Of a DNA stretch of 24,169 bases, positions 19,706 to 23,102 are shown piece after piece. The notes under the pieces are model-generated. The model ran no database searches. It was not told the DNA's origin and worked only from the letters and a program-made list of their open reading frames with translations. Position 1 is the first letter of the stretch; the number at the start of each line of letters is the position of its first letter. This DNA is from a virus. The position numbers and the translations under genes were made by a program. The stretch is from positions 1 through 24,169 of the IMG/VR virus record IMGVR_UViG_3300048903_000122; one strand, 5' to 3'.

Positions 19706-20129
19706 CGTGGGTCAGCATCGGCAATCCCTTTTCCGCGAACCGCTCGTACAGCGTCTCGCCGCTCGGCAACTGGGCATAGGGCAGGAACACCTGGGGCAGC
19801 GTCGCCTGCCCTGCATCGATCACGGCGAGCTGCGCCTCGATCCACGACCGCAGCACGCGCCACGCCACCCGTGCCGCCGCCTCCCGCGAGCGCTGCGCCC
19901 GCGACAGCTTGGTGTCCCGCGTCAGCATGGCATGCACGCCGTCGATGTTCGCTGGCAGCCGATAGGCGATCAGGCCGTGCGGCGTCTCGATCCGGAACGC
20001 CAGATGCGTCAGCACCCCGGCTTCGTATTCCATCATCACCGCCTGCGCCCTGGCGCGCACCAGCCGCGCCTGGATCTGGCCCGCCGTGCGCTCGATCGGC
20101 ACCTCGGTGTGGCGGTTGAGGATGGTCAC
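19698..20129 (-). CDS. Conserved phage protein of unknown function (TEVPIERT/YERF type)
   Basis: A 143-aa protein from GTG 20129 (GTGA overlap with the preceding stop; the extension to 20216 is rejected). Its sequence follows a pattern I recall from very many siphophage genomes: TEVPIERTAGQIQARL, ARAQAVMMEYEAG, RLPANID, AARVAWRVLRSWIEAQLA, VFLPYAQLPSGETLYERF. The family appears mostly helical with an N-terminal alpha/beta part. It is usually annotated hypothetical and found near replication or recombination genes. No catalytic motif is clear. Conservation makes it the best-supported gene of this operon. Confidence 0.75.
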   Translation of the reverse strand: MTILNRHTEVPIERTAGQIQARLVRARAQAVMMEYEAGVLTHLAFRIETPHGLIAYRLPANIDGVHAMLTRDTKLSRAQRSREAAARVAWRVLRSWIEAQLAVIDAGQATLPQVFLPYAQLPSGETLYERFAEKGLPMLTHDA

Positions 20130-20296
20130 TTGTTGACCGCCACATAGAGGAAGTCGCACGCCTGACGCGCCTTGAACCACGCCTGGGCCTCCTCGGGCGT
20201 CAGGTCGTCCAACCACCCTTTGACGCGCTCCAGGCGCTGCACGCAGTCCGCAGCGGCGTTGCCAGCCTCGTGCAGAGCCATCTCGCGGTCGTTCAT
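20126..20296 (-). CDS. Small helical protein
   Basis: A 56-aa protein from ATG 20296 (MNDREMALHEAGNAAADCVQ...), four bases after the upstream stop. It contains VKGWLDDLTPEEAQAWF and ends in VNK, overlapping the next GTG by four bases. It is acidic and all-helical, with no cysteine pairs or membrane segment. No family is recognised. Its tight packing between coupled genes and a normal amino-acid composition are the main support. Confidence 0.55.
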   Translation of the reverse strand: MNDREMALHEAGNAAADCVQRLERVKGWLDDLTPEEAQAWFKARQACDFLYVAVNK

Positions 20297-20300
20297 CGCA

Positions 20301-20459
20301 TTACACCCCGCAGATGCTTCGTAAGTGCCAGTCGAACGAGCTGAAGGTGATCTCGCCACGCAGGAACTTGGCCTCCATCTCGCGGTTGAGCGCGACAAAG
20401 GCGGGATCGCAATCCGGCTCGGCACGCGGCGGGCGTTCGCGAGGCTCGGTGTCGCTCAT
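20301..20459 (-). CDS. Small hypothetical protein
   Basis: A 52-aa protein from ATG 20459, which overlaps the stop of the preceding 30-aa gene as ATGA. The N-terminus is charged and proline-rich (SDTEPRERPPRAEPDCDP). The C-terminal half is a likely helix and turn (FVALNREMEAKFLRGEITFS, then FDWHLRSICGV). No known domain is apparent. It is the second gene of the leftward operon. Confidence 0.55.
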   Translation of the reverse strand: MSDTEPRERPPRAEPDCDPAFVALNREMEAKFLRGEITFSSFDWHLRSICGV

Positions 20460-20548
20460 GGCTGGCGGATCCCGCAGCGACCGCAGCGCGGACAGTAGGG
20501 CACCGACGCCCAGGCGATGTTGCAGGCCGAGCAATACCAGACGCTCAT
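20456..20548 (-). CDS. 30-aa zinc-ribbon microprotein
   Basis: A very short gene, ATG 20548 to TGA 20456. Its product has WYCSACNIAWASVPYCPRCG: two CxxC pairs 9 residues apart and one more cysteine, a complete four-cysteine zinc site in 30 residues. A strong GGAGGGGG lies about 8 bases before the ATG, and the stop overlaps the next gene as ATGA. A candidate -10 box lies 25 bases upstream, so this would be the first gene of the operon. The longer frame to 20995 is antisense noise through the promoter region. Confidence 0.6.
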   Translation of the reverse strand: MSVWYCSACNIAWASVPYCPRCGRCGIRQP

Positions 20549-20721: not shown

Positions 20722-21312
20722 TCAGACTCGAGTCGCTCCCATGCGCGCCCGCCGCAGCGCCTTTTCCTCGGCAATCTTCGCCGCGACTCGAGCCGCCCGC
20801 GCGACAGGGTCCGTCACCGGCAGCGCTGCGACCGTCACGGCGGCGGTGATAGAAGATTGAAGATATAAGCTCTTGATAGGAGGGGGTGCGGGTGGCGTCG
20901 GCGGTGGCCCTCCGTCCTCTCCCGGCACGATCAGCACGTAGGCGTTTGACGTCTGCTCTGCCCGCCACCCGTTCCGGACGATCCGGCGATCCCAATCCAG
21001 CAGGCCGAGCGCTCGAGCATCCGCCAGCGCCCGCTCGACCGTTCGCTCCCCGATGCCAGCATCAGCCGCCAGACGGGCGTGGGACGGGTCACAGCGCCCA
21101 TCGCTGGCCAGATAGTCCGGTAGCACCTCCAGCGCCCAGGCGCCCTTGGGACCGATCCTGCCCGCTCTGACGTGGACGTGGACGATGTACCGCCACCGCG
21201 ATTTGAGGTTGCGATCCATGGGACGGCGTCGCCCTGGCCCGAACTGCGAGCCGCGGTGGAACGGTTTGCAACGGCTGGAGCTTGGTCGGCGGTGAATGCG
21301 TGGCTTTTTCAT
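20722..21312 (-). CDS. HTH_36-type helix-turn-helix protein (possible replication initiator/regulator)
   Basis: A 196-aa protein. The ATG at 21312 is chosen because GGAGG (21323-21319) sits six bases before it. A later Met at 21219 lacks one. Residues of about 40-125 match the winged-helix HTH_36 outline: GAWALEVLPDYLASDGRCDP, then ARLAADAGIGERTVERALAD, then ARALGLLDW. This domain is common in plasmid and phage replication proteins and in regulators. A proline-rich linker (GGPPPTPPAPPP) and a basic, alanine-rich C-terminal helix follow. It is flanked upstream by a 270-base noncoding region full of inverted repeats, which fits either an origin or an autoregulated promoter. No helicase or primase accompanies it in the window. 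Confidence 0.7.
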   Translation of the reverse strand: MKKPRIHRRPSSSRCKPFHRGSQFGPGRRRPMDRNLKSRWRYIVHVHVRAGRIGPKGAWALEVLPDYLASDGRCDPSHARLAADAGIGERTVERALADARALGLLDWDRRIVRNGWRAEQTSNAYVLIVPGEDGGPPPTPPAPPPIKSLYLQSSITAAVTVAALPVTDPVARAARVAAKIAEEKALRRARMGATRV

Positions 21313-21383
21313 CGGTTTCCTCCGATGCCGAAGCCAGCCGTCAGGACACAGTTCTCCAGCAGCCAAAGTGAGGCTTGATTTTT

Positions 21384-21443
21384 GGCCTTGCTTGTTGGAT
21401 GTTCGGGACTGTCAGATCACCGAACAAACCAGCTAGCAAGGCC
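21384..21443 (+). ncRNA. Long imperfect hairpin, possible small RNA or origin element
   Basis: GGCCTTGCT (21384-21392) is the exact complement of AGCAAGGCC (21435-21443). Inward come a T/T mismatch, five more pairs with one G-U, a small internal loop, and TGTTCGG (21400-21406) paired with CCGAACA (21420-21426) around a 13-base loop. That is about 21 pairs in 60 bases. Because a rho-independent terminator follows directly on the plus strand, a plus-strand RNA is the simplest reading, but no convincing promoter is visible. An origin hairpin for the neighbouring HTH protein is the alternative. Confidence 0.5.
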
Positions 21444-21472
21444 GTCCCTTCGGGGGCGGCTTTCGGCTTTTT
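21441..21472 (+). terminator. Rho-independent terminator (plus strand)
   Basis: GCCGTCCC (21441-21448), loop TTCG, GGGGCGGC (21453-21460) with one G-U pair, then TTTCGGCTTTTT. The UUCG loop and T-run are canonical. There is no plus-strand gene between 17425 and here that it could serve, which points to an unannotated plus-strand transcript. Confidence 0.7.
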
Positions 21473-21505
21473 AGGTCATAGGGTTACGGCACTCCTGCGC
21501 CCGCG

Positions 21506-21582: not shown

Positions 21583-21846
21583 CTACTCCAGCATCTCGAT
21601 CGTCACGCGCACCCGCTTGCCCATCAGGCTGCGGAACAGCGTGTGGTTGAGCGGCTCCTCCTCCTCCCAACTGTGCAGCCTGACAAAGAAGGCCGGGTCA
21701 TAGGGCGTCGGTTGAGCCTCGTCCCGTAGGTCTTCCGTCGAGTGGTACATGATCGCGGCGTGCCCGCTGTCCTCAAACTTGACGCCGCAGACACCCCCGC
21801 TGTCATCCGGCGGCACGGTGAATTCCTGCTGCCAGACGATGCTCAT
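21583..21846 (-). CDS. Small hypothetical phage protein
   Basis: An 87-aa acidic protein (MSIVWQQEFTVPPDDSGGVCG...). Its ATG overlaps the stop of the upstream RHH-like gene as ATGA, so both are translated from one mRNA. It contains AAIMYHSTEDLRDEAQ, a tract of acidic residues (SWEEEEPLNH) and a beta-rich end (MGKRVRVTIEMLE). No family is recognised. The partner position after a putative regulator could indicate a co-regulator or antitoxin-like product, but there is no motif evidence. It ends in TAG. Confidence 0.6.
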   Translation of the reverse strand: MSIVWQQEFTVPPDDSGGVCGVKFEDSGHAAIMYHSTEDLRDEAQPTPYDPAFFVRLHSWEEEEPLNHTLFRSLMGKRVRVTIEMLE

Positions 21847-22235
21847 GCTGCCGTGTCCATCTCATTGAGATCGCTGGGCTCGACCGGTTGAGGCGCAGCC
21901 AATTGGGCAATTTCGGTTCGCCTCTCCGACAGTCTCTTCGGCGGCTTCGGCGGCACTGCCCCGATCGTCTCGCCAAGCAGGCGATAGACACGACGACTGA
22001 ACCACTGCGGCTTGCCATCCAGAGCGGCCATAGCGATCAGCCTGTCTTGGTCGGTTTCGGGCTGTGGCCCGGTCATATCGTGCGCGGGAACAGAGTTCCC
22101 ACGTTCCGTGGCCACATATGCGCGGATCGCTCGACCGAGCCACACGGCCACGTTGACATTGCCTCGTTGAGCGGCCTTGACAGCCTCCTGGCTGTCGGCC
22201 TCATCCATGCTCCGGATCTTCCACTCATGTGCCAT
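21843..22235 (-). CDS. Ribbon-helix-helix-like regulator
   Basis: A 130-aa protein from ATG 22235; GTG 22250 is an alternative start five codons earlier. The first 45 residues (EWKIRSMDEADSQEAVKAAQ, then VNVAVWLGRAIRAYVATER) fit a MetJ/Arc-like fold: a short strand, a helix, a G-x-V-x-V/W-L turn and a second helix. The rest is a linker with RRVYRLLGETIGAVPPKPPK and an acidic end (DLNEMDTAA). RHH proteins bind tandem or inverted short repeats in their own promoters. The DNA directly upstream contains just such an array (22243-22302), which suggests autoregulation. The fold call is by pattern only. Confidence 0.6.
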   Translation of the reverse strand: MAHEWKIRSMDEADSQEAVKAAQRGNVNVAVWLGRAIRAYVATERGNSVPAHDMTGPQPETDQDRLIAMAALDGKPQWFSRRVYRLLGETIGAVPPKPPKRLSERRTEIAQLAAPQPVEPSDLNEMDTAA

Positions 22236-22242
22236 TGGTTCT

Positions 22243-22318
22243 GTTCCCACGTCCTGTTCCTACACGTTGCCACGCTGCATCATGTGGGAACCGTGTGGCA
22301 ACAAGGCGTGGCCACGCC
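22243..22318. promoter_or_regulatory. Octamer-repeat operator array plus 14-bp palindrome
   Basis: Five related octamers lie within 60 bases. On the plus strand they are GTTCCCAC (22243-22250), GTTCCTAC (22256-22263) and GTTGCCAC (22266-22273); inverted copies are GTGGGAAC (22284-22291) and GTGGCAAC (22295-22302). Spacings are 10-13 bases, about one helical turn. Immediately beyond is the perfect palindrome GGCGTGGCCACGCC (22305-22318). The array sits just upstream of the RHH-like gene. A further GTTCCCAC (22095-22102), inside the perfect inverted repeat GGGAAC-AGA-GTTCCC (22086-22100), lies within that gene. Confidence 0.6.
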
Positions 22319-22451: not shown

Positions 22452-23102
22452 CTAGGCCTTCCGACGACGATTGGCCATGAAGCCCAGTCCCAGCAGTCCA
22501 GCCCCGAGCACACTCAGGCTGGTCGGCTCTGCCACGTCGGCAGCCGACACGGTGCCGGTATAACTCGCGGTGAACGCGGAGATGGTGCCGTTGGCTGCGG
22601 TGAGGCCACCGCCGCCGATGTTGCTCAAGCTGAGATCGAACGTGTTGGGCGCGATCAGCTTCGCCGGGTCGATCACGTCGGAGGTCAGCACCAGCGAATC
22701 CGGTGGGTTGTTGACGTTGATCACCAGACCGGGCCCGCCGCTCTTGCCGAGCGCGGCATCGGTGAACACACCGGACAGCAGATCGACGCCGCCGCACCCG
22801 GCCAGGGTGGACAGGCAGAACGTGCCGCTGAAGTGCTGCACGATGATCCCAGCGAACACGACCGCCGCGCCGTCGCTGTCGGCGGTGAGCTGGAAGAACG
22901 CGGATGGCGACGGCGGGTTGTCCAGTAGCGCGGCGAGGTTGATCGAGGCGTTGGCGGCGAGGTGCGTGGTGGTCGCCGTGGGGTTGGTGGCGATCAGCGT
23001 GTTGCTCAGGCCGTTCTGCGCGAACTGGCTGATCTGGCCAGCGCGTGCTGGCAGCACGGCCAGAGCGGAGATCGCCAAGGCAGCAAGCAGGATGTTCCGC
23101 AT
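22452..23102 (-). CDS. Secreted PEP-CTERM-like sorting protein
   Basis: A 216-aa protein from ATG 23102, with AAAGGA six bases upstream. It has a clear signal peptide (MRNILLAALAISALAVLPARA, cleaved before GQ if typical). The mature part is Ser/Thr/Gly/Asn-rich and beta-like, with two cysteines (GTFCLSTLAGCGG). The C-terminus from about residue 190 is VAEPTSLSVLGAGLLGLG followed by FMANRRRKA: a PEP-like motif (AEP rather than PEP), a membrane span and a basic tail. In bacteria such tails are processed by exosortase for export or surface display. In a phage this would be cargo that alters the host surface. It is a stand-alone unit with its own AT-richer leader and terminator. Confidence 0.85.
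   Translation of the reverse strand: MRNILLAALAISALAVLPARAGQISQFAQNGLSNTLIATNPTATTTHLAANASINLAALLDNPPSPSAFFQLTADSDGAAVVFAGIIVQHFSGTFCLSTLAGCGGVDLLSGVFTDAALGKSGGPGLVINVNNPPDSLVLTSDVIDPAKLIAPNTFDLSLSNIGGGGLTAANGTISAFTASYTGTVSAADVAEPTSLSVLGAGLLGLGFMANRRRKA

Follow-up and report, generated by a model that had tools for sequence, protein, structure and literature searches.

A conserved candidate antisense RNA unit opposite the leader of a winged-HTH gene in uncultured phages

Does a strong hairpin with a terminator pointing right, set among genes that point left, mark an antisense RNA in a phage genome? The question is raised by one locus in a 24,169-base stretch of a virus record (hereafter the window), which recurs in reverse orientation, at 99.99% identity, within a contig of 64.8 kb. 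A preliminary description had read positions 21384-21472 as a discrete plus-strand RNA antisense to the leader of the HTH gene, possibly of the kind that controls plasmid replication genes. As it stated, the neighbouring predicted genes (20722-21312, 21583-21846, 21843-22250 and 22452-23102) all lie on the minus strand. Comparison of 14 elements supports a discrete, plasmid-like RNA opposite this leader; the 3' end near 21472 is retained, and the predicted start moves to about 21408. The features are collected in Table 1.

Table 1. Features of the element and of the adjoining HTH gene in the window.
Feature	Position	Strand	Basis or remark
Putative sigma-70 promoter	21375..21403	+	TTGATT (21375-21380), 17 nt, GATGTT (21398-21403)
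Predicted antisense RNA, ~65 nt	21408..21472	+	Promoter geometry, conserved first bases, terminator stem in 14/14 elements
Parts of the predicted antisense RNA		+	5' tail 21408-21437, terminator hairpin, U-tract 21468-21472
Terminator hairpin SL-I	21438..21463	+	Core GCCGTCCC-TTCG-GGGGCGGC; in 14/14 elements
Lower stem extension GGCCTTGC/GCAAGGCC	21384..21443	.	Fold of 21384-21472; completes the 21-pair hairpin
Upper hairpin H2 (TGTTCGG/CCGAACA)	21400..21426	-	Arms pair far better than exchanged arms
Two-codon mini-ORF ATG ACC TAA (Met-Thr-stop)	21471..21479	-	ATG-NNC-stop conservation
Shine-Dalgarno GGAG of the mini-ORF	21492..21495	-	Spacer 12 nt in the window
Proposed start hairpin CATCGG-aggaaa-CCGATG of the HTH gene	21310..21327	-	Loop contains the Shine-Dalgarno; 3' arm contains the start codon
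Gene of the winged-HTH protein, 196 aa	20722..21312	-	O-like replication-initiator domain

Hairpin, terminator and related elements

The segment 21384-21472 folds on the plus strand with -46.6 kcal/mol, compared with a mean of -28.1 kcal/mol (sd 3.1) for 200 dinucleotide shuffles, none of which reaches the native energy (z = -6.0). An inverted-repeat search recovers the stem GGCCTTGCTTGTTGG/CCAGCTAGCAAGGCC as repeat I4. Meanwhile, a terminator scan finds AAGGCCGTCCC-TTCG-GGGGCGGCTTT at 21438-21463 (+), followed by a T-rich tail and pointing right. The hairpin of about 21 pairs and its rightward UUCG terminator are real, as described. As a class, terminator-like sites show no enrichment across the region (5 against 3.7 expected), and no Rfam family scores above the gathering cut-off in the window. 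We notice that the tail 3' of the terminator stem is broken up (CTTTCGGCTTTTT), which counts against the antisense-RNA model.

The 14 distinct elements comprise that of the window and those of 13 further phage contigs (L numbers), mostly diverged and from uncultured phages. All protein relatives in viral contigs have an element of the same plan just 5' of the gene. Scans with DNA patterns added L037 through its promoter part and L041, L042, L048 and L056 through the mini-ORF, and these additions were confirmed by a profile, R1, at E <= 1e-7; two other scan hits, L012 and L017, are unrelated loci. R1 served as a sequence profile only, since misalignment of the hairpins by MAFFT leaves its model with only 5 base pairs. 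Near-identical contigs were counted once (the window with L002; L009 with L010 and L011). The element occurs exactly once in each of the 12 records searched whole. The downstream gene codes for a short HTH-type protein (~134-200 aa) in every case, the most distant of these proteins being ~22-33% identical to that of the window; in L003, a short ORF lies between the element and the HTH gene. Phage and plasmid collections searched for the locus and the protein gave no usable matches, and one scan of genome contigs gave no relatives.

What is conserved across the set is the upper stem together with the terminator. Only the window phage and its near-identical contig have the outer half of the hairpin of 21 pairs (21384-21391/21436-21443), and the lower stem was not found in the other elements. 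Loss of the stems in close relatives, which had been named as evidence against an RNA, is not what we observe; the stems are retained with compensatory change. When the 3' arms of H2 were exchanged between phages, pairing weakened from a mean of -16.9 kcal/mol for a phage's own arm to -8.7 kcal/mol, and the same exchange of the terminator stem gave -19.4 and -13.9 kcal/mol. In neither case did any of 20000 permutations equal the native value, with the qualification that the arms were chosen by hand and that the 14 sequences share ancestry and are not phylogenetically independent. Both stems co-vary, pairing being kept despite sequence change. A chance hairpin is ruled out by the shuffle z-score together with the arm-exchange permutations.

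The two stems differ in the strand that they favour. The terminator stem is more stable on the plus strand than on the minus strand in 14/14 elements (Wilcoxon p = 1e-4), whereas the folding energy of H2 in the 14 elements has no strand preference (p = 0.92). Because a G-U pair turns into an A-C mismatch in the opposite strand, wobbles report the strand on which a stem acts. Automatic folds of the terminator stem contain 37 G-U pairs on the plus strand and none on the minus strand. In the core stems of nine elements aligned by hand, SL-I has 7 plus-strand wobbles and none on the gene strand, while H2 has 5 on the gene strand and 1 on the plus strand; adding five later elements read by eye brings the counts to 11:0 and 6:1 (Fisher p 0.0004), again for hand-chosen arms in related sequences. 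This strand preference argues firmly that the terminator stem acts as a plus-strand RNA structure. The opposite wobble bias of SL-I and H2 fits an RNA that starts inside H2. The gene strand lacks a T-run behind the hairpins, and intrinsic attenuation of the mRNA was rejected on that ground.

Predicted promoter and plus-strand RNA

On the plus strand, the pattern TTGnnn-17-GATRNT is present in 12 of the 14 elements, among them all four that were recovered solely via the mini-ORF, and in 25 of 4000 shuffled elements. In the other two, L006 and L009, the spacer measures 18 nt and the -10 region diverges, with no clear -10 hexamer. In the window, the putative promoter agrees with the consensus at 7 of 12 bases, a weak match to an E. 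coli consensus that may not be that of the host. A generic promoter scan misses this site because its hexamers fit the E. coli consensus weakly. Across the set, -10 hexamers that are poor measured against E. coli, and unclear in L006 and L009, speak against the antisense-RNA model. The spacing of the hexamers is constant across elements although the sequence of the spacer varies.

In most elements, the motif A(C/T)TGNSAG begins five bases past the -10 hexamer, which itself sits within the arm of H2 that is the 3' one viewed from the gene. We therefore predict that transcription starts in the loop of H2. With the promoter likely at 21375-21403, the predicted RNA would begin near 21408 and exclude the 21-pair hairpin, which the preliminary description had counted as part of the RNA; its start falls within that hairpin, and the lower stem is specific to this phage. 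Across elements the predicted length is ~54-87 nt. The U-rich 3' end would coincide with the stop codon of the mini-ORF on the other strand. The first 12 nt of the predicted RNA are mostly unpaired in 10-11 of the 14 elements, the exceptions being L007, L020 and L042. YUNR is a motif of antisense recognition loops, and 11 of the 14 elements carry it in the H2 loop segment complementary to the RNA's 5' end. No coding gene lies opposite the predicted RNA, and the next upstream gene ends ~110 nt past it. Conservation of the promoter-like hexamers together with the terminator gives good support to a discrete plus-strand transcription unit opposite the leader of the HTH gene.

The HTH gene and its leader

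The best start of the HTH gene is the ATG at 21312 (-), behind the Shine-Dalgarno sequence GGAGG. Its product matches PHROG 391, 'replication initiation O-like', at E 2.3e-9 over the HTH region only; of the 10 relatives scanned, 4 match PHROG 391 as well, all at E <= 7e-7, and the distant proteins L008, L009, L048 and L056 have no O-like match. The AlphaFold prediction (mean pLDDT 67; core confident over ~34-127) consists of helices with a two-stranded wing. Among viral folds its nearest matches are HTH proteins, including a putative replication protein O, and the PDB matches, above E = 0.001, are generic winged helices. Features of a full-length O protein, namely an in-gene origin and a domain contacting the helicase loader, were not found: the proteins have only ~134-200 aa, the matches cover the HTH alone and no iterons were found. 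Since the PHROG match is confined to the HTH and the PDB matches are generic, 'O-like' is a domain assignment rather than a demonstrated function. A designation as a replication gene is likely only in so far as nearer homologues match O-like initiators over the HTH; distant ones do so weakly or not at all. We also considered an origin of replication at the element and rejected it, as iterons, an A+T-rich stretch and a skew extremum are all missing there.

The leader on the gene strand has the order Shine-Dalgarno sequence, mini-ORF, complement of the terminator stem, H2 and start hairpin. The arrangement of a Shine-Dalgarno sequence and ATG-NNC-stop occurs in 10/10 elements that were not chosen by the mini-ORF and in 14/14 overall, and in 26 of 4000 shuffled leaders. 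The stop codon is TAA, TAG or TGA and the middle codon ACC, CCC, ATC or AGC. Nine other unselected elements have a spacer of 6-8 nt behind the Shine-Dalgarno sequence. The frame upstream of the mini-ORF is open for between 0 (L007) and ~140 codons, differing between phages; because these lengths differ so widely, the mini-ORF is not the tail of a longer ORF common to the phages. From the mini-ORF to the main start there are ~135-175 nt.

The loop of H2 and the 5' end of the predicted antisense RNA are complementary. Across elements H2 has variable arm spacing and bulged stems, and in L007 and L042 a longer structured insert takes the place of the loop. H2 likely forms in the mRNA leader; since its folding energies do not tell the strands apart, this assignment rests on the wobbles in hand-picked core stems and on promoter geometry. 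The start hairpin reads CATGG..CCATG in several relatives, so that the sequence changes while the pairing stays, which suggests that this hairpin, too, is conserved.

Conserved, largely non-coding blocks lie ~60-400 nt upstream of the mini-ORF in L003, L004, L007, L020, L037, L042 and L048. They include a GGCGGGACGCAGCCGG..TACGTCCC hairpin and CCCCATGGCTGC, and some carry a small ORF, MAAxKLHGF, that terminates in different frames. These blocks may be a second leader element.

Several features of the surrounding genome were noticed in passing. GC content is 62-64%. Products encoded by the 64.8-kb contig include exonuclease VIII, a QueE-like and a queuine tRNA-ribosyltransferase-like protein, and DNA methyltransferases. 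Genes for a QueE-like radical SAM protein, a queuine tRNA-ribosyltransferase-like protein, a weakly Mom-like protein and a DNA methyltransferase are found in the L002 contig (G001), L023:7657-11827, and judging from these genes the phage probably modifies DNA bases. In the gene 21843-22250 (-) and directly 5' of it, imperfect repeats at 22086-22115, 22243-22264 and 22286-22315 contain operator-like dyads (GTTCCCACGT / GTGGGAAC / GTGGCCAC). The predicted protein of 22452-23102 (-), which has no Pfam match, terminates in AEPTSLSVLGAGLLGLGFMANRRRKA; such an end, which we take to resemble a PEP-CTERM sorting signal, is odd in a phage protein. Downstream of the HTH gene, minus-strand ORFs 20126-20425 and 20301-20534 overlap. 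The phages of L004 and L007 match parts of the stretch 20126-20534 at 81-88% identity, which makes a real gene likely there.

Possible action and comparison with known systems

On the basis of the conserved signals, we give a probability of roughly 0.6 to a cis-encoded antisense RNA unit, which probably lowers expression of the initiator-like protein. The promoter would start the RNA in the loop of H2; the RNA would run away from the HTH gene and halt at its own terminator over the stop codon of the mini-ORF. Both parts of the RNA have their complement in the leader: the 5' tail in the loop and 5' arm of H2, the 3' half in the sequence that separates H2 from the mini-ORF. The tail could nucleate on the loop, and pairing would then progress along the 5' arm of H2 and across the spacer as far as the mini-ORF. 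Such pairing would, in the manner of copy-number RNAs, reduce the amount of initiator-like protein, either because a positive effect of the mini-ORF is removed or because the leader is exposed to RNase III. We infer from this arrangement that the RNA is transcribed and pairs, at which step and in which direction it acts, and that it has a part in replication.

Antisense RNAs opposite a leader with a short ORF 5' of an initiator gene are known from CopA/CopT-Tap of plasmid R1 and its relatives. The phage unit shares this plan, but the ORF in its leader is a two-codon one placed 5' of the hairpins, and one main stem-loop is predicted for the RNA, not two. In architecture, the closest system is RNAII of plasmid pMV158, which consists of a single hairpin between a single-stranded 5' tail of 17 nt and a U-rich 3' end and inhibits translation of repB, acting via its tail (PMC4485353). 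As in RNAII, the predicted signals of the 14 elements place an own promoter and an intrinsic terminator opposite an initiator leader, with a short RNA whose build may be similar. The likeness concerns architecture, and we claim no homology. In contrast to pMV158, the phage leader has a two-codon mini-ORF and a hairpin loop that contains the predicted antisense start, the carrier is a phage and not a rolling-circle plasmid, and an O-like HTH protein takes the place of RepB as the target.

The mini-ORF has parallels of its own. The two-codon minigene mg2 of axe-txe (ATGactTAA, Met-Thr-stop) raises txe expression in cis (PMC8708949). Both mg2 and the ler leader minigene likewise combine a Shine-Dalgarno sequence and Met-X-stop in the leader of the regulated gene; in 10/10 unselected phage elements we find the same Shine-Dalgarno sequence, ATG, one codon and stop, in an independent frame. 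The phage mini-ORF differs from known minigenes in that it is present in all 14 elements and adjoins a predicted antisense RNA, and the distance to the main start is ~135-175 nt, compared with 15 nt in the known case. If the phage mini-ORF acted like the txe minigene, the antisense RNA would counter it. We tentatively extend the antisense reading to a copy-number switch of the plasmid type, in which the dose of initiator-like protein is set by the minigene together with an antisense RNA that terminates at the minigene's stop codon. Such switches could, with similar reserve, define a new family of antisense RNAs in phages without a recognisable lysogeny module, setting a ribosome on AUG-X-stop against an antisense RNA in one leader. 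The conserved two-codon minigene is the unusual part of this proposed antisense control at an initiator-type leader.

In position, the closest system is OOP of phage lambda, a cis RNA of 77 nt made from promoter pO beside gene O (PMC12197685, PMC5869508). In the phage element, the flanking gene matches PHROG 391 and a short, self-terminated RNA is predicted to start just upstream of this O-type gene and to run away from it. This geometry would suit an unlikely alternative, that the RNA is made but that what matters is RNase III cleavage of the mRNA or the act of transcription, not translation control. No integrase was found in the nine contigs scanned for a tyrosine integrase, some of which are fragments, so that a cII lysogeny switch is not an obvious need. 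However, OOP pairs with cII mRNA, whereas the phage element opposes a non-coding leader with nothing coding opposite its RNA, and repeated iterons and a skew extremum are absent from the element. The likeness to OOP is thus one of position, and homology is not claimed; the carriers differ in being phages without a recognisable integrase, and Rfam gave no match.

Conservation of the mini-ORF and H2 on the gene strand raises the question of whether the plus-strand signals are incidental and the mRNA leader itself, with its mini-ORF, two hairpins and start hairpin, controls the HTH gene, possibly through ribosome occupancy, protein binding or autoregulation by the HTH protein. Leader minigenes of two codons do alter downstream expression (PMC8708949). 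We regard this explanation as quite improbable: in 14/14 elements the plus strand gives the terminator stem its better fold, all wobbles of this stem are on that strand, and the promoter spacing is kept while the spacer sequence differs. That H2 is instead a DNA operator palindrome for repressor immunity, with an RNA of little function, is very improbable. H2 does overlap the putative -10 hexamer and varies between phages as operators do, but its variable arm spacing, its bulges and the long loop inserts of L007 and L042 would be unusual in an operator, and no repressor or integrase was recognised among the scanned proteins. A small RNA acting in trans on host or other phage messages would account for the fairly constant, seed-like 5' end A(C/T)TGNSAG, yet the rest of the tail varies between phages and always faces the same leader, and we give this almost no weight.

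The antisense unit that we favour is short, single-copy and defined in 14 contigs, so that the role of a minigene in antisense control can be tested with reporter fusions. If the RNA is made and active, these phages would dose an initiator-like protein by an antisense switch of the kind used by plasmids, and the element would be a natural, repeatedly conserved case in which an antisense RNA is coupled to a minigene of two codons.
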